Shown one piece after another: positions 3,514-22,091 of a DNA stretch of 22,996 bases. Position 1 is the stretch's first letter. Each line of letters opens with the position of its first letter. The notes below the pieces were generated by a model. The model ran no database searches. It was not told the DNA's origin and was given only the letters and a program-made list of their open reading frames with translations. A program made the position numbers and the translations under genes. The stretch lies in the IMG/VR virus record IMGVR_UViG_3300031975_000248, positions 1-22,996 of that record; one strand, given 5' to 3'. The stretch is from a virus.

Positions 3514-5310
3514 ATGGCAAATTATCCATTTAAAGTAAATATAGAAACAGGAGATGGAGATCAATATAGTTACTATACATCATCATTCGCTACGGATGCT
3601 GATTTACAAATAAGTTCTTCAAATATAGTTGATAGGATAAATATTATACCAGTGGGTAGTCCTTATATTCAAAGTGAAGAAGCTGTCAGCATGCATGCTT
3701 CTAAATTTTATGCAAACTCTAATGCAGGAACTATGGGTATAGACTATATCTCAGCCTCCTTTACAGAACCACATACAGGTAGTATAACTTTTACTGATAC
3801 AGAAACCACTACAAATGGTGGTCTTAAATCTTACACATTTTGGGGTTCAAAAGTTTGCAGTGTTTTAGGTTTGCCAGAGGGTATACCAATATATACAGAA
3901 AATTTTAAATTATCTGATGATACTAATGACCCTACCAATTACTTATCAGGAGATGTTATAGCTAACGGTGTAACAGTAGCACAATCTTTCAAAATGGCAC
4001 CACAAGGAAGAATGAGAAGTTCTTTGATGTGGGATGAACAATTTGGTGATGGTTATGTAAAATGGGTTAGTGGTAGTGTTAATAAATTGTCTATCGGTTA
4101 CGATGATGTAAAGGATGCTTATCAAATATTTTATTATGACACTAGCAATGCAAATCCACTTCAAATCTCTGGTTCTGTTAGTTGTAAAAATCAGCTAGCT
4201 GCAAACGCTATAGTTGGTAGTACTGTTACTGCGACAGGAACTGGTAATGCTTTTTTAGGAGACCAACTAAGACCCAGAGCCGCTGATACGGAATTAACAT
4301 TAACCCACCTTTCAGCTTCTGGTGCCGATAATGGAGTGTCTACTCTAATTAATGGGCAGACTGCACCAATTGGAACCGGTGGTTCAGTAAGAATACAAGG
4401 TGGGGCTTCTTATTTAAGCCAAGCAGCTGGTGGAAATGTGGAATTAATACCTGGAGTAGGCGGCGATGGTTCTTCAGCTAATACTCCTGGTTATGTCCAC
4501 TTAACTACTAAAAACTCAGCTGGCACAGTTCTTAGATTAGGTGACACAACAAGTAACCACGAAAATTGGATAAGCATTCGGGCTCAAGACGGCGCTGAAA
4601 CCAATGGAAGTGGTATAACTTGGTACGAAACAGGTACTTTTAGTGTAAGTGCTCCACAATACGGAGCAAAAATAGTTTATGATGAAGATTCTGATGATTT
4701 TCATTTGGGAACAATGAACAATAATACTTTTTACAAACAAATCACAATACCTAGAGGAACTAGAGCAATAGAGGTTTTTGGTCATTGCCAACCTCAAACA
4801 GATAATCTTTATGATTTGGGTAATTCTAGTTTTAGATGGGATGATGTTCGAGCTACAAATGGAACGATACAGACATCAGATAGAAATCTTAAAACGCAGA
4901 TAAGTGGTTCAGATTTAGGTTTAGATTTTATAAATGATTTAAATCCTGTAAAGTATCAATGGTTGTCAGAAGGTAGACCACATTATGGTTTAATAGCACA
5001 AGAAGTTTCTTCCTCATTAGCTAAGTCCTCTGTCCACACAGACAACTTTGCAGGATATGTTGAAAATAGAATGTTTGTTAGTGCAAGCGTAAGTGGAAGT
5101 GAAAAAGATATAAGAGATACTGCTGATTGGGAAATGGAAAACTTTACTGCTATTCCAAATCCTGAGTTGAGTTTACGATATAATGAATTCCTATCACCGA
5201 TGATAAAAGCTATACAAGAATTATCTTCACAGGTAGAGACTCTAAAAGCACAGATAAGTGGTAGTGGTGACTTCAACGCTTTAAAAACTACACTCACCGA
5301 TAATGGATAA
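3514..5310 (+). CDS. Tail fibre / receptor-binding protein with C-terminal S74 intramolecular chaperone
   Basis: This is a 598-residue protein that follows the long fibre by 24 bases, with AGGAG at 3500-3504 before the ATG. The N-terminal two thirds is Ser/Thr/Gly-rich and beta-like, without a recognisable enzymatic motif. Residues 454-463 read TSDRNLKTQI and residues near 490-500 read YGLIAQEV; together these are the hallmark of the endosialidase-type chaperone family (Pfam Peptidase_S74). In that family the C-terminal domain assembles the trimeric fibre and then releases itself by cutting just before the Ser of the Ser-Asp pair, here Ser455-Asp456. The end of the protein (IQELSSQVETLKAQI) is a short coiled coil, as expected for the chaperone trimer. 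The mature fibre would therefore be about 454 residues. The receptor-binding role is inferred from family and position. Confidence 0.85.
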   Translation: MANYPFKVNIETGDGDQYSYYTSSFATDADLQISSSNIVDRINIIPVGSPYIQSEEAVSMHASKFYANSNAGTMGIDYISASFTEPHTGSITFTDTETTTNGGLKSYTFWGSKVCSVLGLPEGIPIYTENFKLSDDTNDPTNYLSGDVIANGVTVAQSFKMAPQGRMRSSLMWDEQFGDGYVKWVSGSVNKLSIGYDDVKDAYQIFYYDTSNANPLQISGSVSCKNQLAANAIVGSTVTATGTGNAFLGDQLRPRAADTELTLTHLSASGADNGVSTLINGQTAPIGTGGSVRIQGGASYLSQAAGGNVELIPGVGGDGSSANTPGYVHLTTKNSAGTVLRLGDTTSNHENWISIRAQDGAETNGSGITWYETGTFSVSAPQYGAKIVYDEDSDDFHLGTMNNNTFYKQITIPRGTRAIEVFGHCQPQTDNLYDLGNSSFRWDDVRATNGTIQTSDRNLKTQISGSDLGLDFINDLNPVKYQWLSEGRPHYGLIAQEVSSSLAKSSVHTDNFAGYVENRMFVSASVSGSEKDIRDTADWEMENFTAIPNPELSLRYNEFLSPMIKAIQELSSQVETLKAQISGSGDFNALKTTLTDNG

Positions 5311-5321
5311 TTCACAAACTT

Positions 5322-5335
5322 TATATTTATATATG
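5322..5335 (+). promoter_or_regulatory. TATATTTATATATG gap motif (candidate late promoter or processing site)
   Basis: The 44-base gap between the S74 fibre and the multi-domain enzyme contains TATATTTATATATG, 19 bases before the ATG at 5355. The core TATTTATA recurs in every gap longer than 30 bases in this window. Read on the minus strand it is TATAAATA, the T4 late-promoter sequence, so the direction of action is uncertain. The motif is seen directly; the regulatory function is inferred. Confidence 0.5.
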
Positions 5336-5354: not shown

Positions 5355-8300
5355 ATGGATAAACTTACAGAATTTTTAACAAAACCATTTCTAAACGAAG
5401 GAGCTAGGGATCCTGGCATATTTAAAGCTATCTTTTTAGCTGGAGGGCCTGGAAGTGGTAAATCATATGTAGCTTCTCAATTATTCGGTATACCTGAAAA
5501 GATAAATGTTTCTAAAACAGGTTTGAAGATGGTAAATCAAGATTCTGAATTGGAAATGTTATTAAAAAAATATTATGGTACTACAGACTTAGACATTATG
5601 CCAGATGAATTGTTTGCTGATTTGACAGGTGTAGATAGAAATGGCGATCCTGTAGATTATGATACAAGCGGTTTAAGAAAATTTGCTAAATCTTTAAGTA
5701 AAGAAAGATTGAGATTATATACCAATGGTAGATTGGGTGTAATCATAGATGGAACTGGACACAAATATGGTTCTGTAAAAGAAAAGAAACAGAAATTAGA
5801 AGCATTGGGTTACGATTGTTTTATGGTTTTTGTCAATACCTCTTTAGAAGTTGCTTTACAGAGAAATGAAGAAAGGGCAAGGGTTGTTCCTGAAAAGATT
5901 GTTCGTCAAAGTTGGCAAGATGTTCAAAACAATTTAGCATTTTTTCAAGGTTTGTTTGGTATGAGTAATTTTATGGTAGTTGGTAATAATAAATTTCTTA
6001 GCCCTAAACAAGCACAAAGTAAATTTAAGATGTTAGTTGATAAGGGTATAAATAAATTTATGAAATTAAAACCAAAAAGTAAAATAGCAAAAGCTTGGTT
6101 AAGAAAAGAAAAGAAATTTCAAAAAGTATTTAAAGATCCAGGCCAATCTCGTTTCTTTGAGGCTATAAAGATAGATGTAAATGTTGGTGATACAATTAAA
6201 GTGGGTAGATTTAAAAACAAAAAGGTATTTGTTAAAAATATCGGAAAAGACAAACACGGAATGCCAACAATAAATGGAAAGCCAGTTGTAAAATTTAGAA
6301 TGGCCAAAGATAAAGATTATTTAAAAAATGTATCTGAAGAACCAAGAGTTCCTCGTAAGAAAGGACAACATCGTGGTTCAAAGTCTCATTCAGATTTATA
6401 TACGGATGAGAATCCAAAAGGAACAATTAAAGGATTAAAGTTTGCTACAGTCAAAGATGCTAAAGCATCAGTTAGTAAGATAAGTGGAAGTGGTAAAAAA
6501 CACGCACATAAGATACAAGCTGCTGTAGCTATGGAACAGAGAGCTAAAGAGATGGGCAAGAGTTCGGAAGCAGCTGTCTATAGAGCTTACATAAATAAGA
6601 TGAAAAAGAAAACCAAAAAGAAGAATGAAGAATTTGGAGCACCAGCAGGAACATTACCATCACCAAGCCGTAAGATGGTTAAGAAAATGAAGAAGAAAGG
6701 TAATACTTCAGTTCCATATGGTAGTGGTTATAAAAAAGCAAAAAATATAAAAGAAAGTCTTGACTTGTATATGGAAAATGTTGTATATTCTATAGTTGAT
6801 AATGGGGATAGTGCATCTAATTTGAACGAAAACAAAGATAAAAAACTAATCGGTGTATTTGGTGGAAGATTTCAACCATTTCATAGTGGACATTTAGCTA
6901 CATATAAGTGGATGAAATCAAACTTTGATGATGTTTATATAACAACTTCTGATATAAAACAACCACCACGGCATCCGATGAACTTTAAAGAAAAAGCTTC
7001 ACATATGATTAAAATGGGTATTCCAAAAAATCGTATCATTAAAGAAAAGTCGCCATATGTTCCAAATAATTTATTGAAAAAATTTAATAGTAATAATACA
7101 GCAGTTGTTTTTGCTTTTGGTGAAAAAGATGCTGGTCGTTTAAAAGGTGGTAAAAAGAAAGATGGTAGTAAATCATACTATCAAGATTATAAAAAAAATA
7201 AGAATGATATAAAGGGTTTTGAAGAACACGGATATTTTGTTCAAGCACCAAAATCAGGTAATATAAGTGGAACACAGATGAGAAAGTTATTAGGTGATCC
7301 TAAAATTGATGATGGTGCCAGAGAAAAACTATTTAAAAAATCATTTGGATATTATGATAAAGCTGTGTATACTATGATGACGAATAATTTCAAAAAGTTA
7401 TTTGAATCATACATATTGACGGATGAATTAATTGAAGAATTTTTATTAGAATCATCATCCACACCTGCTGGAAACTTAGATGATGGTCCTTCCACATTTT
7501 ATACAGATTATGAAACATACAAAAAGACTTCTAAAGAATGGTTGGATTCAATTTACAAAGATGCCGGTTGGAAAGTTTTAGATTATGTTTTGAGTTCCGA
7601 TGCAAAAAATTCAATAACAGATCAATATAGATCTGTACCACTAACTTATTTAGATCATGGACAAGCAAATGGTTCTACTATGGCAGTTACTAAGTACAAA
7701 AATTGGATGGAACAGGTAGTAAAACCATTAGGTTGGGAAGTAGTAAATTGGATGGGAAGTACAGCAGCAATTGATAATATTATTGGTACTCTATTTGCAG
7801 CTGGTGCTGATGGTGATTCATATGAGGGTGATGAAATAGATTTAAAAGAACAAATAAATAGTAAAAATAAACTAAGACAAAGAAACAAAGAAAAGGAGTT
7901 ACTGCTTATGGGCGGAGCTTATGGTCATTTAAGTCATCCATTTGACGATAAAAATCTTACATTTTCAGATTTTAAAACACTAATTATTAATACATTACAA
8001 GGTAATCTTAGTAGTGAAGGCGCTGTTACTGAAAAAACAGATGGACAGAATATAATGGTAAGTTGGAAAAATAATAAACTTATCGCAGCTCGTAACAAAG
8101 GACATATTAAAAATTTTGGTGCTAACGCATTAGATATTAATGGTATTAAAAATATGTTTGCGGGTAGAGGTGATATTGAAAAAGCCTTTGTTTATGCTAT
8201 AAGAGATTTACAGATAGCGGTTAGTAAATTAAGTAAAGCGCAAAAGGATAAAATATTTGATGAAGGTAAAAAGTTTATGTCTTTAGAAGTCATATATCCA

Positions 8301-9143
8301 AAGACAGTAAATGTTATACCATATGATAAAGCATTATTACAGTTTCACGGAACAATAGAATATGATTCCGCAGGTTCTCCGCAAGGGGAAGATAGAGGAA
8401 GTGCAAGAGTTTTGGCTGGTATGATAAAGCAAGTTAATCAAAATGTACAAAAAGCATTTAAGATTACACAACCATTTGTTGCTAATCTACCAAAGGTAAA
8501 AGACTTTTCTGCCAGACAAAGTTACTTTTTAGGTAAGTTAAACAAATTAAAAAAAGAATTTGATTTAAAAGATACAGACACATTATCAGATTATCATCAG
8601 GCATATTGGTATGAGTATATATTTAATGGTGGAAAACAAACAGACAATCCTAATGTAACAAATAATGTTATGGCTGGTCTTTTGAAGAGGTGGGCTTTCT
8701 TTGATAAATCATATAAGATTCCACAGATTAAAAAAGACTTAAAGGATTATCCTAAGTTTTTAGATTGGGTATTGTCTACTGATAAAAACGATCATGCCAA
8801 GCTACAGAAAAAGCACATAAGAGATTGGGAAGTTCTTTTCTTTGAATTAGGTGCTGAGGTACTAAGTAATATGAAAGATTTTATAGCAGCTAATCCTGAT
8901 AAGGCTGTACAAAAAATAAAAAAAGATTTGATAAAAGTAATAGCTCAGGTAAAAAAAGCTAAAGATCCTTCTAAATTAGAAATGTTAAAAACTCAATTAG
9001 ATAGATTAAATGCTTTGGGTGGCTTTAAAAAGATTATACCGAGTGAGGGTATTACTTTTGTGTTTAAAGGAAAGGTTTTCAAATATACAGGAGCATTTGC
9101 ACCTGTTAATCAAATACTAGGTATGTTAAAGTTTACGAGGTAA
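5355..9143 (+). CDS. Multi-domain protein: P-loop kinase-like, HIGH nucleotidyltransferase and ligase-like nucleotidyltransferase, with N-terminal capsid-targeting-like peptide
   Basis: A 1262-residue protein. In order: residues 1-15 form a short helix ending LNE|G, resembling a T4 capsid-targeting sequence; a zeta-toxin/polynucleotide-kinase-like P-loop domain follows with Walker A GGPGSGKS (30-37) and IIDGTG (130-135); a small basic domain begins about 270 (VNVGDTIKVGRFKNKK); a Lys-rich domain at about 356-420 (HAHKIQA, MEQRAKEMGK) resembles a phage domain I recall as DUF5872; a cytidylyltransferase-like domain has HSGH at 510-513 and ISGTQMR at 637-643; the C-terminal domain has ligase-superfamily motif I KTDG (Lys894), a motif III-like Glu978 (LEVIYP), motif IV-like EGITF (1231-1235) and motif V-like KVFK (1240-1243). 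Substrates are unknown; RNA repair or NAD/nucleotide chemistry are possibilities. It starts a transcription unit that leads into terminase and portal. Domain calls are from motifs only. Confidence 0.8.
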   Translation: MDKLTEFLTKPFLNEGARDPGIFKAIFLAGGPGSGKSYVASQLFGIPEKINVSKTGLKMVNQDSELEMLLKKYYGTTDLDIMPDELFADLTGVDRNGDPVDYDTSGLRKFAKSLSKERLRLYTNGRLGVIIDGTGHKYGSVKEKKQKLEALGYDCFMVFVNTSLEVALQRNEERARVVPEKIVRQSWQDVQNNLAFFQGLFGMSNFMVVGNNKFLSPKQAQSKFKMLVDKGINKFMKLKPKSKIAKAWLRKEKKFQKVFKDPGQSRFFEAIKIDVNVGDTIKVGRFKNKKVFVKNIGKDKHGMPTINGKPVVKFRMAKDKDYLKNVSEEPRVPRKKGQHRGSKSHSDLYTDENPKGTIKGLKFATVKDAKASVSKISGSGKKHAHKIQAAVAMEQRAKEMGKSSEAAVYRAYINKMKKKTKKKNEEFGAPAGTLPSPSRKMVKKMKKKGNTSVPYGSGYKKAKNIKESLDLYMENVVYSIVDNGDSASNLNENKDKKLIGVFGGRFQPFHSGHLATYKWMKSNFDDVYITTSDIKQPPRHPMNFKEKASHMIKMGIPKNRIIKEKSPYVPNNLLKKFNSNNTAVVFAFGEKDAGRLKGGKKKDGSKSYYQDYKKNKNDIKGFEEHGYFVQAPKSGNISGTQMRKLLGDPKIDDGAREKLFKKSFGYYDKAVYTMMTNNFKKLFESYILTDELIEEFLLESSSTPAGNLDDGPSTFYTDYETYKKTSKEWLDSIYKDAGWKVLDYVLSSDAKNSITDQYRSVPLTYLDHGQANGSTMAVTKYKNWMEQVVKPLGWEVVNWMGSTAAIDNIIGTLFAAGADGDSYEGDEIDLKEQINSKNKLRQRNKEKELLLMGGAYGHLSHPFDDKNLTFSDFKTLIINTLQGNLSSEGAVTEKTDGQNIMVSWKNNKLIAARNKGHIKNFGANALDINGIKNMFAGRGDIEKAFVYAIRDLQIAVSKLSKAQKDKIFDEGKKFMSLEVIYPKTVNVIPYDKALLQFHGTIEYDSAGSPQGEDRGSARVLAGMIKQVNQNVQKAFKITQPFVANLPKVKDFSARQSYFLGKLNKLKKEFDLKDTDTLSDYHQAYWYEYIFNGGKQTDNPNVTNNVMAGLLKRWAFFDKSYKIPQIKKDLKDYPKFLDWVLSTDKNDHAKLQKKHIRDWEVLFFELGAEVLSNMKDFIAANPDKAVQKIKKDLIKVIAQVKKAKDPSKLEMLKTQLDRLNALGGFKKIIPSEGITFVFKGKVFKYTGAFAPVNQILGMLKFTR

Positions 9144-10287: not shown

Positions 10288-10674
10288 ATGAAATATTTTT
10301 TATCACTATTATTAATAGTTCCTTTACTTGGACAATCAATTCAAAAAGATGGAAAAGAAATAACTTCTTTTACAAAAGAACAAGCATTAGAAATGTTGAA
10401 AGCTCGTGATGCACAATGGGAAGGCAAATTAGCTAAAGCAGATTCATTGATAGAAGGCTACAAAGAATCGATTGTTGATTGTGACGATGTAATTAATCAA
10501 TTAGAAGAACAAATAAAATTAGATTCTTTATTAATGCTTGCTCAGAGAAAACAAATTGATTTATTAAAAATTCGTGATAAAACTAATGAAGAATTAGTAG
10601 AAGTAATTAAACCAAAATGGTATGAGAATCAATATCTTTGGTTAGGAATAGGATTTATCTTAGGAAAAATATAA
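10288..10674 (+). CDS. Exported or membrane coiled-coil protein with C-terminal hydrophobic segment
   Basis: A 128-residue protein from the ATG at 10288. This start leaves a compact signal-like N-terminus (MKYFLSLLLIVPLLGQS) and lies one base after the upstream stop; an in-frame ATG at 10264 would add eight residues and overlap the upstream gene by 23 bases. Neither start has a clear ribosome binding site, so coupling is likely. Residues of roughly 30-100 are charged and heptad-like. The C-terminus (ENQYLWLGIGFILGKI) is a second hydrophobic segment after KPKW. Two terminal hydrophobic segments around a coiled coil resemble a unimolecular spanin, but the lipobox Cys expected for that class is absent. 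Function is not established. Confidence 0.7.
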   Translation: MKYFLSLLLIVPLLGQSIQKDGKEITSFTKEQALEMLKARDAQWEGKLAKADSLIEGYKESIVDCDDVINQLEEQIKLDSLLMLAQRKQIDLLKIRDKTNEELVEVIKPKWYENQYLWLGIGFILGKI

Positions 10675-12251
10675 TGAAACCAGGACAACTAAAAGAGGTA
10701 ATAAAAAGCGAATATAAGAAATGCGCTAAAGATCCTATATACTTTTTAAAAAAGTATTGTGTTGTTCAGCACCCAATTAAAGGTAAAGTTCCATTTCATC
10801 TTTGGCCGTTTCAAGAAGAATCTCTTAAAACATTTGAAGAACATAGGTTCAATGTAATTCTAAAAGCTCGTCAGTTAGGTTTGTCTACGTTGTCAGCCGG
10901 ATACTCCCTTTGGATGATGACATTTCATCAAGACAAAAATATATTAGTGATTGCAACCAAACAAGATACTGCTAAAAACTTAGTTACAAAGGTTAGGGTA
11001 ATGCACGCTAATTTGCCAAGTTGGTTAAAACAGAAATGTACAGAAGATAATAAACTATCATTACGATATAATAATGGTTCACAGATAAAAGCTGTTTCTA
11101 GCGGCGAGGATAGTGGTCGTTCTGAGGCTTTGTCTCTTTTGATATTAGATGAGGCTGCTTTCATTGATAAGATTGAACCGATATGGGCTGCTGCTTCACA
11201 GACACTATCTACTGGTGGACAATGTATTGCACTATCTACACCAAATGGTATAGGTAATTGGTTTCATAAGACTTGGGTTGGTGCAGAAGATGGTAGTAAC
11301 GATTGGAACTTTATCAAACTACATTGGAACTTACATCCTGAAAGAAATGATGAATGGAGAAAAGAGCAAGATAGACTATTGGGTCCTTCTTTAGCTGCTC
11401 AAGAATGTGATTGTGACTTCTTAACTTCAGGACAGACTGTCATAGATGGTGTAATCTTAGAAGAGTATAAACAAACACACGTTACAGACCCATTAGAGAA
11501 GAGAGGGATAGATAGTAACCTTTGGGTATGGCAACCAGCAAACTATACTAAAGATTATGTACTAAGTGCTGATGTCAGCAGAGGAGATGGTTCTGATTAT
11601 TCTGCATTTCACGTTATGGATATAGAAACTATGGAACAAGTAGCAGAATATAAAGGTAAAATATCAACAAAAGATTTTGGAAACTTATGTGTAAATACAG
11701 CAACAGAATATAATAATGCTTTGTTGGTAGTAGAGAACAACAATATAGGTTGGGCTACACTACAACAATGTATTGATAGGGGTTATGAAAATTTATTTTA
11801 CACAAGTAAAGATTTAAAGTATGTAGATACAGAACATCAAATGACTAATAAGTATAGAATTGCAGATAGAAATATGGTAGCTGGATTTAGTATGACATCC
11901 AAAACACGACCATTAGTTATTGCTAAATTAGAAGAATACTTCAGAGAAAAGTCAGTTATTGCTCGCTCAAATAGATTAATTGATGAATTGTTTGTATTTA
12001 TATATAACAATAATAAAGCTGAAGCGATGACAGGATACAACGATGATTTAGTGATGAGTTTTGCTCTTACACTTTGGGTAAGAGATACTGCATTAAGACT
12101 CAAAAATGAGGGAATAGAATTAACTAAGAGAACTTTAAGTGGAGTAGCATCACAGATGTTGCCACAAACACCAACCAATCAAAATAATTCTTGGGAAATG
12201 GAAGTAGGACCCAATGGAGAAAAAGAATCGTTAGATTGGTTAATTAACTAA
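10674..12251 (+). CDS. 17: Terminase large subunit (gp17-like)
   Basis: A 525-residue DNA-packaging motor from the ATG at 10674, which overlaps the upstream stop by one base (TAATG) and has AGGA upstream; a TTG at 10638 is in frame but lies inside the previous gene. The ATPase domain shows an atypical Walker A KARQLGLST (Lys64-Thr72) and Walker B LLILDEAAF with Asp159 and Glu160. The RNase-H-fold nuclease has Asp300 (SADVSRGDGSD), Glu354 (LLVVENNN) and Asp457/Asp458 (YNDDLVMSFAL). It is somewhat shorter than T4 gp17 (610). It would cut the concatemer and pump DNA through the portal encoded 10 bases downstream. Confidence 0.95.
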   Translation: MKPGQLKEVIKSEYKKCAKDPIYFLKKYCVVQHPIKGKVPFHLWPFQEESLKTFEEHRFNVILKARQLGLSTLSAGYSLWMMTFHQDKNILVIATKQDTAKNLVTKVRVMHANLPSWLKQKCTEDNKLSLRYNNGSQIKAVSSGEDSGRSEALSLLILDEAAFIDKIEPIWAAASQTLSTGGQCIALSTPNGIGNWFHKTWVGAEDGSNDWNFIKLHWNLHPERNDEWRKEQDRLLGPSLAAQECDCDFLTSGQTVIDGVILEEYKQTHVTDPLEKRGIDSNLWVWQPANYTKDYVLSADVSRGDGSDYSAFHVMDIETMEQVAEYKGKISTKDFGNLCVNTATEYNNALLVVENNNIGWATLQQCIDRGYENLFYTSKDLKYVDTEHQMTNKYRIADRNMVAGFSMTSKTRPLVIAKLEEYFREKSVIARSNRLIDELFVFIYNNNKAEAMTGYNDDLVMSFALTLWVRDTALRLKNEGIELTKRTLSGVASQMLPQTPTNQNNSWEMEVGPNGEKESLDWLIN

Positions 12252-14088: not shown

Positions 14089-14117
14089 AAGAATTATATA
14101 AACGATTGGAGTATAAT

Positions 14118-14972
14118 ATGAGTTCAAAAACAAAACACTCAAAAATCCGTAACACCGGAATATTATTTGAGTTATTAACTAGACAGATTACAGTCGATGT
14201 GTTAAATAATGATAAGAAAGGTTATGCGGCTAAAATATTAAAAGAGTTTTTTAATAAGAACACTCAATTGGGTAAAGAGTACGAATTATATAGAGTATTA
14301 ACTGTTGAGAATTACAAATCAGAAACAAAAGCCAATCATTTAGTAGATGCAGTATTAACTGCTCGTATCAAATTAAACGAAGCTTCTCTAAAAAGAGAAA
14401 AATATAATCTAATTAAAGAGGTTCGTTCTCATTATGATATAAATAACTTTTTTATGGCTAGAATACCAAACTATAAAGTAAATGCTTCAATCTTTAAGCT
14501 ATTTTCAACAAAAGAAGCTATGAATCCTCAGACAGAAACAGAAAGTCGCTTTACTATTGTAGAAAACATAACACGAAAGAACCTTTCAACCAAAAAGAAA
14601 GAGAATGTTATGGTAGAGGGTTACAAAAAGCAAGAAAAAGATTTGAGATTGCTTGCTTATGGAATTTTAGTTGAAAAATTTAACAAAAAATATAGTTCTC
14701 TTAGCGCAAATCAAAGAAATTTGTTAAAAGAGTACATAAATAACATTTCTAACACCAATTCTCTTAAAGAGTTTATTGAAAGTGAAACAGTTAAGGTAAA
14801 AAAGCAACTCCAATCGCATTTACCTAAAGTTTCAGACAAAGTTACAAAGATTAAGCTAAAAGAGGCTATAAATCAAGCAGAAACTCTTATGAAGGGAAGA
14901 ATAGTTGAGGATAAGCAAGTGGTTACATTAATGAGATATTATGAATTAGTTAAGGAGCTAAAGAATGTCTAA
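14118..14972 (+). CDS. Conserved helical head-region protein of unknown function
   Basis: A 284-residue protein. I choose the ATG at 14118 because TTGGAG at 14106-14111 is then a well-spaced ribosome binding site; the in-frame TTG at 14106 would consume that site. The N-terminus (KTKHSKIRNTGILFELLTRQIT) is distinctive and, as I recall, occurs in T4-like marine phage genomes beside the portal gene. The rest is Lys/Glu-rich and predicted all-helical, without enzymatic motifs. Position between portal and prohead protease is that of T4 genes 67 and 68 (prohead core), so a core or internal-head role is reasonable. It contains LNE|A (Glu88) and LKE|A near the C-terminus, possible protease sites. 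Its end overlaps the next gene by 8 bases. Confidence 0.75.
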   Translation: MSSKTKHSKIRNTGILFELLTRQITVDVLNNDKKGYAAKILKEFFNKNTQLGKEYELYRVLTVENYKSETKANHLVDAVLTARIKLNEASLKREKYNLIKEVRSHYDINNFFMARIPNYKVNASIFKLFSTKEAMNPQTETESRFTIVENITRKNLSTKKKENVMVEGYKKQEKDLRLLAYGILVEKFNKKYSSLSANQRNLLKEYINNISNTNSLKEFIESETVKVKKQLQSHLPKVSDKVTKIKLKEAINQAETLMKGRIVEDKQVVTLMRYYELVKELKNV

Positions 14973-15393
14973 AATGGATAAACTCAAAGAAATAATCAGA
15001 GAGTTAATCAAAAATGAGCTCGATGAAGCTTCTGTAACTGGTGATATTGCTGGCTATCAAACGCCTTATGCATTTGGTGGTGGTAGAAAGAAAGATAAGA
15101 AGAAAAAGAAGAAGATAGCTACCAACTCTACTGGATACAGCAAAGTAACTGAAGGTAAGTATCACAACTATAGAAATGATGAGTCAATGAATCCAAAACA
15201 AAAGATAGGTCGTTCTATGAGAGAGATTAGAGATAGTCTCAATGAATTGGATAAATTGGTAAAGATGAATGTTCGTCTTAAAAATGAATTGAATGTCGAT
15301 TCTAGGTCATATTGGAAAAATACACATAAGGCTTTAAATAAAATAAGTGAGAGGTTAGTAAAACTAGCAAGCAAAGTAGGTCAGTTACAGTAA
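14965..15393 (+). CDS. Basic internal-head candidate with N-terminal LDE|A site
   Basis: A 142-residue protein. The N-terminal helix (KLKEIIRELIKNELDE) ends in LDE|A at Glu21, the [I/L]-x-E consensus cut by T4-type prohead proteases. It is followed by TGDIAGYQTPYAFGGG and a run of Lys (KKDKKKKKK), then a helical charged region. The ATG at 14965 overlaps the upstream stop; an in-frame ATG at 14974 is also possible and changes nothing important. A basic, helix-led small protein between portal and protease resembles T4 core protein gp68 or internal proteins in character rather than in sequence. The role as encapsidated protein is inference. Confidence 0.7.
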   Translation: MSKMDKLKEIIRELIKNELDEASVTGDIAGYQTPYAFGGGRKKDKKKKKKIATNSTGYSKVTEGKYHNYRNDESMNPKQKIGRSMREIRDSLNELDKLVKMNVRLKNELNVDSRSYWKNTHKALNKISERLVKLASKVGQLQ

Positions 15394-15404
15394 CCGGAGT
15401 CACT

Positions 15405-15590
15405 ATGCCGTTTGAAGATAAGAAGAAATCCTATATGGATACTCTTTTTAGTATTTCAACATTGTTAAAACGATGGCAAATTGAAATACAGAAAAAAGAT
15501 GTAGATAAGAATTATATGATAAGGAGACTTGGACAGTGGATAGAACAACTGGAAAGTCTTAAACACGAAATTATGATGGAGAAAGACTAA
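15405..15590 (+). CDS. Small helical prohead-core candidate, gp67-like by position
   Basis: A 61-residue charged helical protein, with CGGAG upstream of the ATG and a one-base overlap with the next gene (TAATG). The sequence (MDTLFSISTLLKRWQIE, MIRRLGQWIEQLESLKHEI) is predicted to be two amphipathic helices. T4 encodes a small core protein (gp67, about 80 residues) in the equivalent interval, but I see no convincing sequence match, so the comparison is positional only. Confidence 0.65.
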   Translation: MPFEDKKKSYMDTLFSISTLLKRWQIEIQKKDVDKNYMIRRLGQWIEQLESLKHEIMMEKD

Positions 15591-16372
15591 TGATTTCACT
15601 ATTAGAAATTGCAACAAATATGAATGAGGCTGATGTCGATGATGATAAAATCATCAAGTATAAAGACAAAGAGGGTGAGTCTCAAGAAATGACTGCTGGT
15701 GCTGCTAAAAAGCAACCAGATGACCACCCAGCAAAAGTCGCTTACAATAAAATGTCAGATGATGGTGGCGATGATAGTGAAAAGGATTCTGGCGATAAGC
15801 TAGGTGGTGGTGATTTCGATAGAGATGGTGGAGATGAGCCAGATATGGATTCTGATGATGGTGATGACGAAAAAAATGCACCAGAAAAAGAAAACGAACA
15901 AATTGAAAAAGAATTACAGAATATTGCAAAGGATAAAGGACTAACAGTTGGCTCAGAAGATGCAAACTATGGTGGAGAGATTCATAGCTTGGTTGGTAAA
16001 GATGATGATCCCGATAATGTATTAGGATTTCACGCTGCTCCAAATTTTGATGATGATGGAAATATGACTGGCGAGCCTCAATATGCTATAGAATTGGGAA
16101 TGGGATCTTCTCCAATGTATTTTGGTAGTAAAGAAGAAGCAGACGCAGCTCTTGAAAAAATGGTAGATGATGAAAAAATTAGAAAGGCTATGGATGGTGA
16201 AGGTGATGGAACATTAGCAGATTTAGGAGATTATGCTAACTCCATTATAAAAGTTAAAGACGAAAAAATCAAAGTAATCGATGGAAAAAAATATAAAGCA
16301 ATAAAGGAATCAAAAAAGAATCCTCGTATATTAAAAGAAAATTACGATAGAATATTTAGGAGTAGAAAATGA
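15590..16372 (+). CDS. Acidic core / scaffold-accessory protein
   Basis: A 260-residue protein with a very acidic middle (about 55-105, long Asp/Gly/Glu runs). The N-terminus ends a helix with NMNE|A (Glu13) and continues with IIKYKDKEGES and HPAKVAYNKM, a block I recall from T4-like marine phage head proteins. Residues 229-235 (VIDGKKY) resemble IEIDGVKY in the scaffold protein encoded at 19396, and the C-terminus (ILKENYDRIFRSRK) switches to basic, as in many scaffold proteins that contact the shell. It also has IKE|S (Glu241) and LKE|N (Glu250). It overlaps the prohead protease start by four bases (ATGA). An acidic protein co-translated with gp21 is likely part of the degradable core. Confidence 0.7.
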   Translation: MISLLEIATNMNEADVDDDKIIKYKDKEGESQEMTAGAAKKQPDDHPAKVAYNKMSDDGGDDSEKDSGDKLGGGDFDRDGGDEPDMDSDDGDDEKNAPEKENEQIEKELQNIAKDKGLTVGSEDANYGGEIHSLVGKDDDPDNVLGFHAAPNFDDDGNMTGEPQYAIELGMGSSPMYFGSKEEADAALEKMVDDEKIRKAMDGEGDGTLADLGDYANSIIKVKDEKIKVIDGKKYKAIKESKKNPRILKENYDRIFRSRK

Positions 16373-16971
16373 AACAATTAATAGTAGATTATTTACCATT
16401 TGAAATACAAGCCGACCAAATCAACGAGGCTATGAAAGAGAACAACGGAAAGTTAGTTGTTAAGGGTGTATTGCAAAGAGCAGACACTAAAAACCAAAAT
16501 GGTAGGGTGTATCCAAAAGAAATACTAATGCGTGAAGCTAAAAAGTATTTTGAAAATTTTATTGGACAGAAAAGGGCTATGGGTGAGTTAGACCATCCCG
16601 AATCTTCTGTTGTGAATTTAGCTAACGTATCACATAATATTACAGAAATGAATTGGAATGGTGATGATTTAGTTGGAACTGTAGAGGTTTTACCAACACC
16701 GAGCGGTAATATTCTAAAAGAATTATTTAAAAGTGGTATTAGATTGGGTATTAGTTCTCGTGGTATGGGTTCGGTTGAATCTGTGAATGAGAGTGGGGCT
16801 CAAGAAGTGCAGGATGACTTTGAACTGATTGCATTTGACTTCGTATCTAATCCATCTACACATGGTGCTTTTATGTATCCAATGAATGAGAGTGTTGATA
16901 AGAACGTTGCTGTTCGTAATACAAAGTATGGTAAGGTAGAAGCAGTCATTAACGATATAATGAGAGGCTAA
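16369..16971 (+). CDS. 21: Prohead core protease (gp21-like)
   Basis: A 200-residue serine protease of the T4 gp21 / herpesvirus assemblin type. Visible features are KGVLQRADTKNQNGRVYPK (33-51), MGELDHPESS with candidate catalytic His76, GISSRGMGS with candidate Ser129 or Ser130, and FDFVSNPST (156-164) with Asp157. The enzyme sits inside the prohead, cuts core and shell proteins after [I/L]-x-E, and then degrades itself; the protein itself contains INE|A (Glu20), a possible self-cleavage site. It starts within the previous stop (ATGA) and the next gene begins immediately after its stop. Assignment of individual catalytic residues is by motif, not alignment. Confidence 0.93.
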   Translation: MKQLIVDYLPFEIQADQINEAMKENNGKLVVKGVLQRADTKNQNGRVYPKEILMREAKKYFENFIGQKRAMGELDHPESSVVNLANVSHNITEMNWNGDDLVGTVEVLPTPSGNILKELFKSGIRLGISSRGMGSVESVNESGAQEVQDDFELIAFDFVSNPSTHGAFMYPMNESVDKNVAVRNTKYGKVEAVINDIMRG

Positions 16972-18123
16972 ATGCCATCTAAATCCAAACAACAACAAAA
17001 GTTTATGGGTATAGTAAGGTCGATACAGAAGGGTGAAGCGCCCGCTGGTAAATTTTCAAAAGCAGCTCAAAAGGCTGCTAAGTCTATGGAAAAGGGTAGT
17101 GTAAGAAAGTATGCTAAAACAAAGCATGACGACTTACCTAAAAAGGTAAAGGAAGAAAGAGACTATAAGGATGAGTATAAGAAATTTCAATCTTCTACAA
17201 AGTCTAAAAAGTATAGAGCAGAATTAAATAAGTACAATCGTAAGAAAGGTACTTATGGTAATGGTGATGGCAAAGACGCCTCACACAAAGGGGGAAAGAT
17301 TGTGGGATTTGAATCAGAGTCTAAGAATAGAGGAAGGGCTGAAAAGAGTCGTTTGAAGAAAGAATCTCAAATAACAGAATTAGTTCCACCTATGTCCGTC
17401 ACTAATCCAGCAGCTTACAAAGCTATGTTGGACAGACAGATTGCAAAAAATGTTAAAGTTAAAACTGCTTTAGGTAATAGAAATCATAAAGACCATAAAA
17501 AAGCAAAAAGTTTATTTCAAAGATTTATGGCTAAATTTAAAAAGAAAAAGAAAGATGAAGGATTTGGTGGAGATTTAAAAGGTTCTGAAAAGAAAAAATT
17601 TGAAAAAGCCAGAAAAGAGAATGCCGAAGTTTTAGGATATAAACTTACTGGTAAGGGTGATGTAAATGAAGGTCAAAAACAATATGCTCAAAAATTAACT
17701 GATGATTTTATGAAATCAGTTAGAAAATTTGAACAAGAAGTTATTGTTTTAGCTAAAATGTCTACTAAAATAAGAGGTGATAAAACAGACGAAAAGATTA
17801 TTTTAAAAATGTACAAAAAACATATGACTCCGTTTATTTCACTAATTAGTAGTTGGAATAGTGGAACACAAAGGAATCCTCAAATATCTGAATCTGTAAA
17901 TGAAGCTAAAGATCCTGATATAATTGCTAAAATTAGAGATGTTTTAAAGAATGGTATTACTAACATTAAAGATCCTGTATCAGGTAAAAAGATGAAAGTT
18001 GATAGTTATTCTGCATCTGCTATAACTCAAGTATATGATAAAATCAATACATCTAATAAGAAAAAGTTCGCAAATCTATCAATACCAAAGATGGCTAAAA
18101 TGGCTATGAAGTTTGTAAAATGA
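16972..18123 (+). CDS. Lysine-rich basic head protein of unknown function
   Basis: A 383-residue, strongly basic protein that starts one base after the gp21 stop. The N-terminus (PSKSKQQQKFMGIVRSIQKG, then KAAKSMEKGSVRKYAKTKH) resembles a short phage/bacterial domain I recall as DUF3008. Residues about 64-128 contain DYKDEYKKFQ, NKYNRKKGTYGNGDG, DASHKGGK (102-109) and NRGR...KSR (119-127), a set known to me from several phage structural regions and faintly like an HNH-type zinc-less nucleic-acid-binding fold. ITE|L (Glu136) follows. The C-terminal half is helical and Lys-rich. Basic character and linkage to gp21 suggest a DNA-associated internal head protein; this is inference. Confidence 0.7.
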   Translation: MPSKSKQQQKFMGIVRSIQKGEAPAGKFSKAAQKAAKSMEKGSVRKYAKTKHDDLPKKVKEERDYKDEYKKFQSSTKSKKYRAELNKYNRKKGTYGNGDGKDASHKGGKIVGFESESKNRGRAEKSRLKKESQITELVPPMSVTNPAAYKAMLDRQIAKNVKVKTALGNRNHKDHKKAKSLFQRFMAKFKKKKKDEGFGGDLKGSEKKKFEKARKENAEVLGYKLTGKGDVNEGQKQYAQKLTDDFMKSVRKFEQEVIVLAKMSTKIRGDKTDEKIILKMYKKHMTPFISLISSWNSGTQRNPQISESVNEAKDPDIIAKIRDVLKNGITNIKDPVSGKKMKVDSYSASAITQVYDKINTSNKKKFANLSIPKMAKMAMKFVK

Positions 18124-18377
18124 TAAAATTAAAGGATATATTAAACGAAGCTGATGACCACGAAGGTAAAATGGCTAAAGCTCAATTAGAACGTTCTATG
18201 AAGTATGCAAAAATGATTTATAAGATAGTTGATAATGTCGGTAATGGTGGTGAAGTTGAAATGCCGGCTTGGGTTCAATCCAAACTAACTAAGTCTATGG
18301 ACTACTTACAGAGTGTGTACAATTACTTTGATGGTAAAGATGGTTTAGAAGATAAATTTCAAAATAAAGAAAATTAA
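18120..18377 (+). CDS. Small internal-head candidate with LNE|A leader
   Basis: An 85-residue protein whose ATG overlaps the previous stop (ATGA). Its first ten residues, MIKLKDILNE, end in LNE|A, a near-ideal match to the short helix plus [I/L]-x-E cleavage site of T4 internal-protein leaders. The mature part (ADDHEGKMAKAQLERS ... MPAWVQSKLTKSMDYL) is a helical block I recall from other T4-like marine phages, where it appears attached to various head-region proteins. It has no enzymatic motif. A packaged, gp21-processed small protein is the most economical reading. Confidence 0.72.
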   Translation: MIKLKDILNEADDHEGKMAKAQLERSMKYAKMIYKIVDNVGNGGEVEMPAWVQSKLTKSMDYLQSVYNYFDGKDGLEDKFQNKEN

Positions 18378-18411: not shown

Positions 18412-19035
18412 ATGGCAAATGTTAAATTAAAAGATTTACTAAAAGAGATAAGAATAGCTGGTGGTATGATTTCAGAAAGTCCGTGGGCTAAGAAAGAAAA
18501 CGATAAACCATCTATCAATGTAAATGAATTAGTAGAATCTATTCGTAACTTTAACTCTATAGGTGAATCCATCTATGGTAAAGGTAGCTTAAAAGAAGTA
18601 GCTGAAAGTCTTTCATCGATTGCTGAAGGTGCTGCTCAACATACTCTATCTGAAACAGAAGATATGTTTGATAAGGTTACAGTCAGCCGTAATATGAAAG
18701 AACTTACAGGCTTATCAAAGCAATTTGGTAAGGTTTCACAAGAAGCTAATTCTCTACAGGAAAGAATGAGTGGTTTATACGAAGATATGGGGAATATCTT
18801 AGGTAGATACTATGAGATTGGTGAAAAGCATGTGCCAGGTCATGATGATGAGGATAGCGAATCTAATGAAGGTAAGGATATGATGTTTAGAGAGGATGAC
18901 GGATACAAAGAATTTTTTAATAAAGCTATGAAAAAATTTGGAATTAAGTCTCCAAAAGATTTAAAGCCAGAAGATAAGGATGATTTCTTTAACTATGTTG
19001 ATAGAAATTATAAGGCAAAAAAAGAAACAGACTAA
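18412..19035 (+). CDS. Head-region protein of unknown function, upstream partner of bS21
   Basis: A 207-residue protein with AAGGAG well placed before the ATG. The leader MANVKLKDLLKE ends in LKE at residue 12, and ISE|S follows at 20-23. The central segment (IYGKGSLKEVAESLSSIAEG, then DMFDKVTVSRNMKEL and LQERMSGLYEDMGNILGRYYEI) is strongly conserved in T4-like marine phages as I recall. A separate C-terminal module reads FFNYVDRNYKAKKETD, an ending I associate with several phage head proteins. No catalytic residues are apparent. Probably an internal or assembly protein; bS21 follows after nine bases in what looks like the same transcript. Confidence 0.72.
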   Translation: MANVKLKDLLKEIRIAGGMISESPWAKKENDKPSINVNELVESIRNFNSIGESIYGKGSLKEVAESLSSIAEGAAQHTLSETEDMFDKVTVSRNMKELTGLSKQFGKVSQEANSLQERMSGLYEDMGNILGRYYEIGEKHVPGHDDEDSESNEGKDMMFREDDGYKEFFNKAMKKFGIKSPKDLKPEDKDDFFNYVDRNYKAKKETD

Positions 19036-20468: not shown

Positions 20469-22091
20469 ATGTCAAACTTTGATAATCTAAACTCTTTGAT
20501 GACTGGGCACAACCCACACAAAGAGCTTCTCAAACAGACTAGGAAACTGGTCGACAAATGGGAACCGACCGGATTGTTAGATGAAATCGATGACTCCACT
20601 AAGAAACAGGGAATGGCTGTTCTTTTAGAAAACCAGGCAACGCAGCTTATTAAAGAAGCTTCAGCGACAGGTACTGGTGGTGATAGAGAAGAGTGGTCTG
20701 GTGTTGCATTACCATTGGTTCGTAGAATCTTTGGTGAATTGTCAGCACAAGAGTTTGTTAGTGTACAACCGATGAATCTACCATCAGGTCTGATTTTCTT
20801 TTTGGACTTCAAATATGGTTCTGCTTCCTCACAAATCGATCAAAATTCTGATGTATTTGGTAATACTTCAGGTTCTGGCGATGCTAGTGGTGGTTTGTAT
20901 GGTGCAGGCAAATTTGGATATTCAATCAACGATAAAAAAGCTGAAGGTATTACGCCACTTGGTATGACTACTGGTTCTGCTACATGGAAAGATGTAGACT
21001 TTGAGCCTGATTTAAGTGCTTCTGTTGCTGATGGAACACTTTTAAAAGTATCAGTTGGTGCTGGTTTATTTACTAGACCTGACTACAATGGCATACGTGC
21101 TTGGGAACTTAGTGGTTCTGGAGTAACAGCTGTTTATCCAGCTTATAGTGTAGTTGATGATGTCAATAATGTAACTACTGCTAGTTTCTTTGCTAAGATT
21201 ACACCTGCTGATGGACAACTTTTTGGTGTTAAGTATCACGAAGCTCCAATTGCTACTCAACGTGGTGATTTTGAACAGAGCTCGTTTACTACACCTGGAC
21301 CATCATCTGCTGATGATCTTGAGATTCCAGAAGTAGACATTCAGTTAAGAAGTGAAGCTATCGTTGCTAAAACAAGAAAGTTAAAAGCTGTATGGACACC
21401 AGAGCTTGCTCAGGATCTTAATGCTTATCATTCTGTTGATGCCGAAGCTGAACTAACTGCTATGTTAAGTGAGTACATCGCAATGGAAATCGATTTAGAA
21501 ATCCTTGATATGTTAAAAGCTAATGCTTCTGCTAAGACAGCATACTGGTCAGCTAAAGTTGGCTATGAGTATGATGGTTCTGGAACAGGTGCACCTGCTT
21601 TTTCACAAATAAGTGGTGCTTCTAATGCTTATACGAAATCTCAATGGTTTCAAACATTAGGTATTAAGATACAATCTGTTTCTAATGCTATCCATCAGAA
21701 AACACTTCGTGGTGGTGCTAATTTTGTTGTTGTTTCACCTGAAACTGCTACAATCTTAGAATCAGTTAGCGGATATATTGCTAATACTGGTAATGCAGAA
21801 GGTAAAACTTATGCTATGGGTGTTGAAGCTGTTGGTTCAATCAATAACAGATATACTGTTTATAAGAATCCTTACATGTTGGATAATTCTATACTTATTG
21901 GTTTCAGAGGAAGCAATTTCTTAGAAACTGGTGCTGTATATGCTCCATATGTACCGATGATTATGACTCCGTTAGTATACGATCCTCAAAACTTTACTCC
22001 ACGTAAAGGTGTGATGACTCGTTACGCTAAGAAGATGGTTCGTCCAGAATTCTACGGAAAAGTTGTTGTAACCGACATCGATCAAGTTTAA
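20469..22091 (+). CDS. 23: Major capsid protein (gp23-like)
   Basis: A 540-residue protein (T4 gp23 is 521) with GGGAG at 20457-20461 before the ATG. Residues 1-63 form a charged helical delta region ending LIKE|A at Glu63, the same place where gp21 cuts T4 gp23 (after residue 65). The mature N-terminus continues WSGVALPLVRRIFGEL and VSVQPMNLPSGLIFFLDFKYG, the most recognisable T4-type gp23 blocks. Later blocks are LKAVWTPELAQDLNAYH, EAELTAMLSEYIAMEIDLEI, GGANFVVVSPETATIL and YDPQNFTPRKGVMTRYAKKMVRPEFYGKVVV, all typical of the HK97-fold shell protein of this family. It forms the hexamers of the head and is followed by a terminator. Confidence 0.97.
   Translation: MSNFDNLNSLMTGHNPHKELLKQTRKLVDKWEPTGLLDEIDDSTKKQGMAVLLENQATQLIKEASATGTGGDREEWSGVALPLVRRIFGELSAQEFVSVQPMNLPSGLIFFLDFKYGSASSQIDQNSDVFGNTSGSGDASGGLYGAGKFGYSINDKKAEGITPLGMTTGSATWKDVDFEPDLSASVADGTLLKVSVGAGLFTRPDYNGIRAWELSGSGVTAVYPAYSVVDDVNNVTTASFFAKITPADGQLFGVKYHEAPIATQRGDFEQSSFTTPGPSSADDLEIPEVDIQLRSEAIVAKTRKLKAVWTPELAQDLNAYHSVDAEAELTAMLSEYIAMEIDLEILDMLKANASAKTAYWSAKVGYEYDGSGTGAPAFSQISGASNAYTKSQWFQTLGIKIQSVSNAIHQKTLRGGANFVVVSPETATILESVSGYIANTGNAEGKTYAMGVEAVGSINNRYTVYKNPYMLDNSILIGFRGSNFLETGAVYAPYVPMIMTPLVYDPQNFTPRKGVMTRYAKKMVRPEFYGKVVVTDIDQV
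20655..20660 (+). other. Predicted gp21 cleavage site in gp23 (LIKE|A)
   Basis: Codons for Glu63 and Ala64. The match in sequence ([I/L]-x-E before a small residue) and in position to the T4 gp23 site gives an internal calibration for the protease consensus in this phage: I-K-E|A. Confidence 0.85.

Follow-up and report, generated by a model that had tools for sequence, protein, structure and literature searches.

A putative capsid-targeted polyprotein of a T4-type phage with kinase, nucleotidyltransferase and RNA-ligase-like domains

The 1262-residue protein and its domains

We analysed a 22,996-nt stretch of virus DNA (the window; positions 1 to 22,996 of IMG/VR record IMGVR_UViG_3300031975_000248) that carries, at 5355..9143 on the + strand, an open frame for a 1262-aa protein (142.6 kDa, pI 9.7); a 101-kb contig in IMG/VR encodes an identical copy. 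A first-pass annotation had described a triple enzyme with all its motifs in one frame, and we found the frame open and the motifs at the positions claimed; three small modules (residues 270-467), a domain at ~700-848 and LxE sites between the modules had been overlooked. On sequence evidence, we think it probable that the gene encodes a capsid-targeted polyprotein, which would be cut by the phage head protease into RNA-end-repair enzymes and injected. IMG/VR holds at least 592 confirmed stretches with relatives, of which 80 loci per scan were retained. Among 237 ligase open reading frames (ORFs), 105 were complete, and the 132 cut by contig ends lie outside the site counts; 63 of the 105 were dropped as redundant, leaving 42 non-redundant proteins for the main site count.

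The kinase domain (residues 16-262; 5400..6140; all parts of the protein are given on the + strand) was assigned by Pfam, profile and model. The Walker A motif GGPGSGKS occupies residues 30-37, and the region scored above the Pfam cut-offs for AAA_33 (6.4e-9) and Zeta_toxin (7.7e-9); because these scores, and that for CTP_transf_like given below, exceed the cut-offs, the motifs are not a matter of chance. K36, N61, D63, D132, R170, R174 and R176 are invariant in 28/28 aligned kinase sequences, and we take the conserved Asp and the lid Arg to have the roles they have in other such kinases. In a search with the profile of this 28-sequence alignment, the CthPnkp kinase (4mde, which carries the name metallophosphoesterase in the profile-search table) and tRNA(Sec) kinase ranked top at a marginal E of ~1e-3. 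The kinase model gave Z-scores of 15.4 for CthPnkp, 14.9 for tRNA(Sec) kinase, 14.5 for a putative kinase, 13.6 for zeta and 12.8 for T4 Pnk, with AvrRxo1 also among the structural matches. A P-loop fold nearest to polynucleotide kinases, the Walker A motif, the conserved Asp and the lid Arg are thus all found together. Pfam, profile and predicted model agree with the end-healing P-loop kinase proposed earlier, and they support a polynucleotide-kinase type nearest to bacterial polynucleotide kinase.

The nucleotidyltransferase domain (NTA; residues 493-699; 6831..7451), of NMNAT type by Pfam, profile and model, contains HSGH at 510-513 and ISGTQMR at 637-643. It matched Pfam CTP_transf_like above the cut-off (2.3e-8) and archaeal NMNAT by profile (4.7e-7), and its model aligned with NadM, NMNAT and NadD at Z ~12, phosphopantetheine adenylyltransferase being level with these. 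GRxQP, the last His and SGTxxR do not vary across 36 NTA sequences, and the first His is replaced by Gly in 16/36. The GxFxPxHxGH-type motif, the C-terminal S-G-T-x-x-R and the fold that mark NMN adenylyltransferases are all present, and the claimed HIGH-type nucleotidyltransferase appears in the predicted model with an NMNAT-type fold. NTA accompanies the ligase domain in 39/42 non-redundant proteins; in two of the other three (LR756500 and L237) a nearby separate gene encodes a nucleotidyltransferase. NTA and the ligase domain may together act as a distinct functional unit. NTA may serve NAD supply or be linked directly to ligation.

Between the kinase and NTA lies the predicted fragment 270-467 (6162..6755; pI 10.3), made up of modules M2, M3 and M4. 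M3 (residues 331-425; 6345-6629) shares ~75% identity with part of certain cyanophage proteins, among them Bellamy gp123, which likewise stands directly before terL; M3 is perhaps a swapped module. NTA is followed by the MID domain (residues 700-848; 7452..7898), modelled with low confidence, which had no Pfam match at E<=1 and belongs to no known family.

The RNA-ligase-like domain (residues 849-1262; 7899..9140) was defined by its model and invariant residues. KTDG at 894-897 is followed by LEVIYP, EGITF and KVFK, and K894, D896, G897, R913, E978, E1231 and K1243 are invariant in 35/35 aligned sequences including that of the window; these residues presumably play the roles of the ligase superfamily motifs. 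The model has a mean predicted local distance difference test (pLDDT) score of 89.4, and ~180 mainly helical residues separate the early from the late ligase motifs. In Foldseek the first five rows were RNA ligases (best E 8.5e-3). VIA-align gave Z-scores of 8.7 for NgrRnl, 8.1 for T4 Rnl1, 7.8 for Trl1 and 7.4 for T4 Rnl2, although Z of this size (best 8.7) can mirror a common arrangement; DNA ligases came next, the best at 7.0, and capping enzymes scored 5.5 or less. Rows 1-22 of this ranking were RNA or tRNA ligases, and rows 1-35 were all ligases of RNA or DNA. Pfam RNA_ligase (PF09414) was matched at E<=1 by 15/35 members (best E 0.0032), all below the curated cut-off, and by the window member not at all. 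KxDG, the later EG and Lys motifs and a ligase fold, as in the RNA ligase superfamily, are present, and we call the domain RNA-ligase-like and treat it as a separate family. The nucleotidyl-lysine ligase/capping-type domain suspected at KxDG is borne out by a model nearest to RNA ligases and by its invariant catalytic-motif residues; the structure check that had been proposed was run, and the HIGH and KxDG segments do fold as nucleotidyltransferase cores in the predicted models. Matches of the ligase-alignment profile to ribosomal protein S6 in the PDB (best 4.8e-4) were taken as chance because they are located mainly in the helical insertion.

The leader and the sites between modules

Residues 1-15 (5355..5399) read MDKLTEFLTKPFLNE|G, the bar marking a predicted cut at 15|16 (LNE|G), and resemble a capsid-targeting propeptide. 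T4 gp21 cuts after L/I-x-E, the published signature being [LI]xE|[AGS], and the capsid-targeting leaders of T4 are 10-19 residues long (PMC9026906). A short N-terminal leader ending in [L/I]xE, a mark of gp21-processed internal proteins, is therefore found here, and the T4-like leader with L-x-E|G of the first-pass annotation is conserved among relatives. In these, leaders of the MxKLTxxLxxPFLxE type precede the kinase, M2, M3, M4 and the nucleotidyltransferase alike, so the leader tracks position and not the module behind it. [LIVMF]xE|G precedes the kinase in 78/78 anchored copies and in 24/24 non-redundant ones (13 after the gene start, 10 after M2, 1 open); the anchor was not found in the stretch searched for 18/96 kinase and 9/237 ligase matches, which were not counted. 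LxE|G is kept in the stand-alone kinases of HTVC008M (MIPFILKE|GLYDPG) and Melnitz (MKTFAELQE|GVYDPN), and the stand-alone ligase of LR756500 has its own leader, ending in LILE|GG. In Atu_ph07 (gp053; L008, 5254-7590) LxE|G also precedes a kinase that lies inside the chain (VTE|GVNDKH); an ADP-ribosyltransferase in the N-terminal part of gp053, suspected by eye, had no Pfam support.

By motif, the window protein has predicted cuts at 15|16, at 269|270 (FFE|A) and 467|468 (IKE|S) around the small modules, and at 492|493 (LNE|N), 684|685 (LFE|S) and 699|700 (LLE|S) around NTA; a loose match at 970|971 falls inside the ligase domain. Five of the six cuts touch or lie in model stretches with pLDDT <50, which include 267-293, 449-467, 477-493 and 685-714, and the leader cut is just past another such stretch (1-11). 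The predicted fragments are basic (pI 9.3 to 10.3) except for the leader (4.9) and the 25-residue piece 468-492 (4.1).

Site placement was counted over the 42 non-redundant relatives with the strict motif [LI]xE|[AGS], module borders set by profiles and expectations taken from shuffles; the modules were defined on the window protein, and foreign inserts in relatives (e.g., the CCA domain) were scored as linker, also in the recount given below. Linkers contained 130 sites vs 24.4 expected (5.3-fold over), and domains 13 vs 48.1 (3.7-fold under). Ten control motifs reached at most 1.45-fold in linkers ([LI]xE[LIVF], 55 vs 37.9). The relatives are not statistically independent, and in a recount at <50% identity (8 proteins) the linker sites numbered 23, whereas 300 shuffles gave 4.8 on average and never more than 12; this recount used another coverage rule, by which 33 proteins were left at 80% identity. 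The linkers around the sites vary in sequence and length.

Single junctions were counted with [LIM]xE|[AGS] as the strict form. A strict site occupied the leader position in all 16 kinase-first non-redundant relatives (START>KIN; 1.4 expected), NTA>MID in 30/36 (4.6), MID>LIG in 26/36 (8.4), M2>KIN in 6/8 (0.5), START>NTA in 4/6 (0.8), START>LIG in 3/3 (0.8) and KIN>NTA in 3/6 (1.5). Weaker junctions were START>M2 (strict 3/13, 0.6 expected; loose 12, 3.5 expected), KIN>M2 (4/13, 0.4; loose 12, 1.4) and M2>M3 (4/16, 1.8; loose 13, 3.6). LxE being a short motif, the placement and conservation of the sites carry the case, and conserved sites at most module junctions suggest a precursor that is probably cut into separate proteins rather than one three-headed enzyme.

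Head genes, head protease and relatives

The polyprotein ORF belongs to a co-directional cluster: upstream of it lies a tail-fibre-like gene, and downstream are the genes of the terminase, the portal, the gp21-type protease and gp23. By its gene content this cluster is a T4-type head region. The upstream product (3514-5310) has a C-terminal Peptidase_S74 (chaperone of endosialidase) domain by family match. On the + strand follow the terminase large subunit (10638..12251; Pfam and PHROG matches), the gp21-type head maturation protease (Peptidase_S77; 16369..16971; PF03420 2.1e-29, phrog_207 6.3e-55), which is the predicted trans cutter, and the major capsid protein gp23 (20469..22091; PF07068 2.3e-74). 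The placement before the terminase in a structural region, as noted in the first pass, holds, and it recurs: a terminase homologue lies downstream in 175/179 ligase ORFs with at least 3 kb of downstream sequence (redundant set; 58 more have less). Peptidase_S77 (gp21, PF03420) was above the cut-off in 19/22 records holding the polyprotein or its ligase, so a second mark of gp21-processed internal proteins, the protease in the same genome, is found as well.

We examined head-protein families as controls, their clusters being recognised by annotation or by likeness to window proteins. The terminase family (25 longest of 185) had 28 sites vs 24.0 expected and the portal family (25 longest of 132) 33 vs 41.7, with no excess in either; the T4 portal is reported to be unprocessed (PMC5694885). 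The gp21 family had a site within the first 35 residues in 25/25 members examined (of 31), and gp23 of the window carries LIKE|A at 63|64, by motif likely its own gp21 site. A conserved 288-aa protein lies between portal and protease (14106-14972), in whose family (25 longest of 116) we counted 58 [LI]xE|[AGS] sites vs 12.7 expected; it is perhaps a core protein shredded by gp21. A gp21-type site also ends the first residues of the small proteins at 14965-15393 (LDE|A), 15590-16372 (MNE|A), 18120-18377 (LNE|A) and 18412-19035 (ISE|S), which are candidates for further internal head proteins.

Within the window no tRNA and no Rfam match was found, PADLOC gave nothing for the 1262-aa protein, and both + strand matches to the T4 late promoter TATAAATA fall within genes. 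The sequence TATTTATA occurs on the + strand at 5324, 14077, 18387 and 19280, in four intergenic gaps (426 non-coding bases in total), and the genes that follow are head-region genes including that of the polyprotein; one extra match, at 11995, is intragenic. It precedes the ORF in 5/39 relatives (four at -31, one at -57) and is possibly a late promoter variant.

Module order varies among the 237 ligase ORFs: the chain may begin with the kinase or with M2 or run M3-M2-kinase, and one reads MID-NTA-M2-LIG. In other arrangements the kinase is absent or encoded by a separate upstream gene, or the ligase stands alone. L120 (1616 aa) and L234 (2411 aa, 5' end open) carry a poly(A) polymerase/CCA-type head (PolyA_pol/CCA) and an HD domain. 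The full-length reading of L234 is L254 (G015:C1:10000-29000), a single frame of 2463 aa with leader, M2, kinase, CCA-type enzyme, HD, NMNAT-like, MID and ligase modules and many LxE sites between them. An ADP-ribosyltransferase in L024 and a Pol-beta-like module in L061 were suspected by eye and had no support from Pfam or from a PDB sequence search. Scanning 84,980 species genomes with a pattern yielded four loci, each of them on a contig from a metagenome-assembled genome, and the ligase family looks phage-bound. Mel-JY01 and LR756508 have an extra, separate Rnl1-type ligase gene, which was not present in the 11 other records searched, so the polyprotein ligase is not the sole ligase in these two.

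Interpretation, rival explanations and known systems

We infer the following course of events from the domains and the site pattern. Like the capsid-targeting sequences of T4, the leader would carry the polyprotein into the core of the prohead, and the gp21-type protease would remove this leader and cut the LxE sites between modules. The products would be a 5'-kinase of ~29 kDa, a basic small-module fragment of ~22 kDa, an NMNAT-like nucleotidyltransferase of ~24 kDa and a MID-plus-RNA-ligase protein of ~64 kDa, which would be packaged with the DNA and then injected. Kinase and ligase together perform the healing and the sealing in RNA repair (PMC7824862), and broken RNA would most likely be what the injected enzymes mend; a natural target would be tRNA cleaved by nucleases of the host defence, and the nucleotidyltransferase would make or restore NAD. 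That tRNA is the target and that repair takes place at injection is suggested by analogy with T4 and by reviews (PMC7824862, PMC9503650).

Several results weigh against this interpretation. The window protein alone is unremarkable (strict sites 4 vs 1.6 expected, loose 7 vs 4.3), and the depletion within domains is not specific to the motif, as [LI]xQ[AGS] (9 vs 38.3) and [KR]xE[AGS] (19 vs 59.7) show; since these control motifs are equally depleted, the linker excess is the real signal. M4>NTA had strict sites in 4/25 (3.5 expected) and loose ones in 18 (9.1 expected), and M3>M4 had none in 18 (0.5 expected) and one loose (1.9 expected). The MID>LIG junction of the window reads LLLM|GG and not LLxE; LLLM stands there in 11/29 non-redundant ligase copies and LLC in one more. 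With LLLM at the junction the two domains may stay joined, and in the window protein MID probably remains attached to the ligase. An excess of sites was also seen in the tail-fibre-type family (as at window 3514; 15 vs 7.6, 9 members) and, at ~2.4-fold, in two small families of unknown role. The ligase domain had no Foldseek match at E<=0.001, that of the window had no Pfam match above the cut-off, and zeta-type kinases come close behind polynucleotide kinases (Z 13.6 vs 15.4). The CCA and HD modules each occur in just 8/237 ligase ORFs. The gp21 protease was not detected in 3/22 records (contigs of 125, 109 and 63 kb, possibly fragments), and no terminase is annotated in the stretch viewed around the kinase genes of HTVC008M and Melnitz. 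In the literature searched we found virion proteomics neither for this phage nor for a close relative; Mel-JY01 was not found there, and the available portions of the Melnitz paper held no proteomics of these proteins.

The domains could also belong to an uncut multidomain enzyme that is made in the infected cell and left unpackaged, an RNA-repair fusion comparable to T4 Pnkp plus Rnl1. Repair enzymes that fuse ligase and kinase are known, and fungal Trl1 is one of the structural matches. However, the module order is shuffled, modules are also found in genes of their own that start with an LxE leader, the polyprotein gene stands among head genes before terL, and Mel-JY01 and LR756508 have the separate Rnl1-type ligase gene elsewhere. 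The concentration of LxE sites between modules and their presence at most junctions weakens a single-chain, three-headed enzyme and suggests a cut precursor, and we consider the uncut enzyme unlikely. If the sites served instead for shredding and clearing a scaffold-like core protein from the prohead, as with T4 gp22, the domains would be relics. T4 gp21 does cut core proteins into many fragments (PMC9026906), but kinase and ligase keep their catalytic residues without exception, NTA likewise keeps GRxQP, the last His and SGTxxR (its first His being Gly in 16/36), and few sites fall within domains, though that depletion is not motif-specific; we regard such a scaffold as very improbable. A further possibility keeps packaging and cutting and changes the chemistry: the NMNAT-like domain would restore NAD against NAD-depleting defences, and the kinase, in the manner of zeta toxin or AvrRxo1, would have a small-molecule substrate. 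No other module accompanies the ligase as constantly as the NMNAT-like domain (39/42), and zeta toxin (Z 13.6) and AvrRxo1 are among the kinase matches. Against this, polynucleotide kinase and tRNA(Sec) kinase are top-ranked for the kinase, the ligase domain matches RNA ligases and some relatives add a CCA-adding enzyme, and a role in NAD or nucleotide-signal chemistry in place of RNA repair appears doubtful at best.

The nearest known concept to a protease-cut, injected polyprotein is that of the polyvalent proteins (Iyer et al. 2017, PMC5512222), which likewise join many unrelated domains in one polypeptide, are encoded beside late genes, are thought to be injected and were compared by their authors to the polyproteins of eukaryotic viruses. 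The 1262-aa protein shares with them at least two disparate domains near late genes. Polyvalent proteins are reported to be split by an in-chain peptidase domain, whereas the sites here fit the head protease in trans; no peptidase family was found in the Pfam or PHROGs lists for our protein at E<=1, though MID could hide one. In the portions available of that paper, 2H domains of polyvalent proteins are never seen associated with RNA ligases, whereas here an RNA-ligase-like domain is the core. The internal proteins and Alt of T4 share the short L/I-x-E leader removed by gp21, and these T4 proteins are packaged and injected (PMC9026906; PMC12373910 adds Ip1 to the comparison); each carries one effector, whereas here one leader serves several enzymes with internal LxE sites. 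T4 Pnkp with Rnl1, CthPnkp and fungal Trl1 have polynucleotide-kinase-type and RNA-ligase-type folds together, and unlike them the protein studied here has the ~180-residue helical insertion, NMNAT-like and MID domains and a proposed virion delivery; no 3'-phosphatase family was found in it, the Pfam and PHROG lists being the sole basis. Inner head and ejection proteins of phiKZ and SPN3US are processed by a gp21-related protease behind a short Glu-ending motif, also at multiple sites (PMC5694885, PMC9026906), whereas the cuts described there remove propeptides, and the available text mentions no chain from which several enzymes are freed. We found no report of a phage head protease that frees several enzymes from a single chain; subscription papers and preprints were thinly covered, so this negative is not proof of novelty.

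On balance we lean towards a general picture in which widespread marine T4-like phages encode a modular set of exchangeable enzymes, destined for injection, in a single polyprotein, which would be cut in the prohead by the capsid maturation protease and would deliver an RNA-repair kit (kinase, ligase, sometimes a CCA-adding enzyme and HD) with an NMNAT-like partner before phage gene expression. If this is true, the head protease, known for capsid shaping, would also free an enzyme set from one precursor, and a single leader would package several proteins in a fixed ratio. RNA repair would then be available at injection, when tRNA-cutting host defence is most dangerous, and LxE sites concentrated between domains would provide a simple sequence rule for finding injected effectors in uncultured phages.

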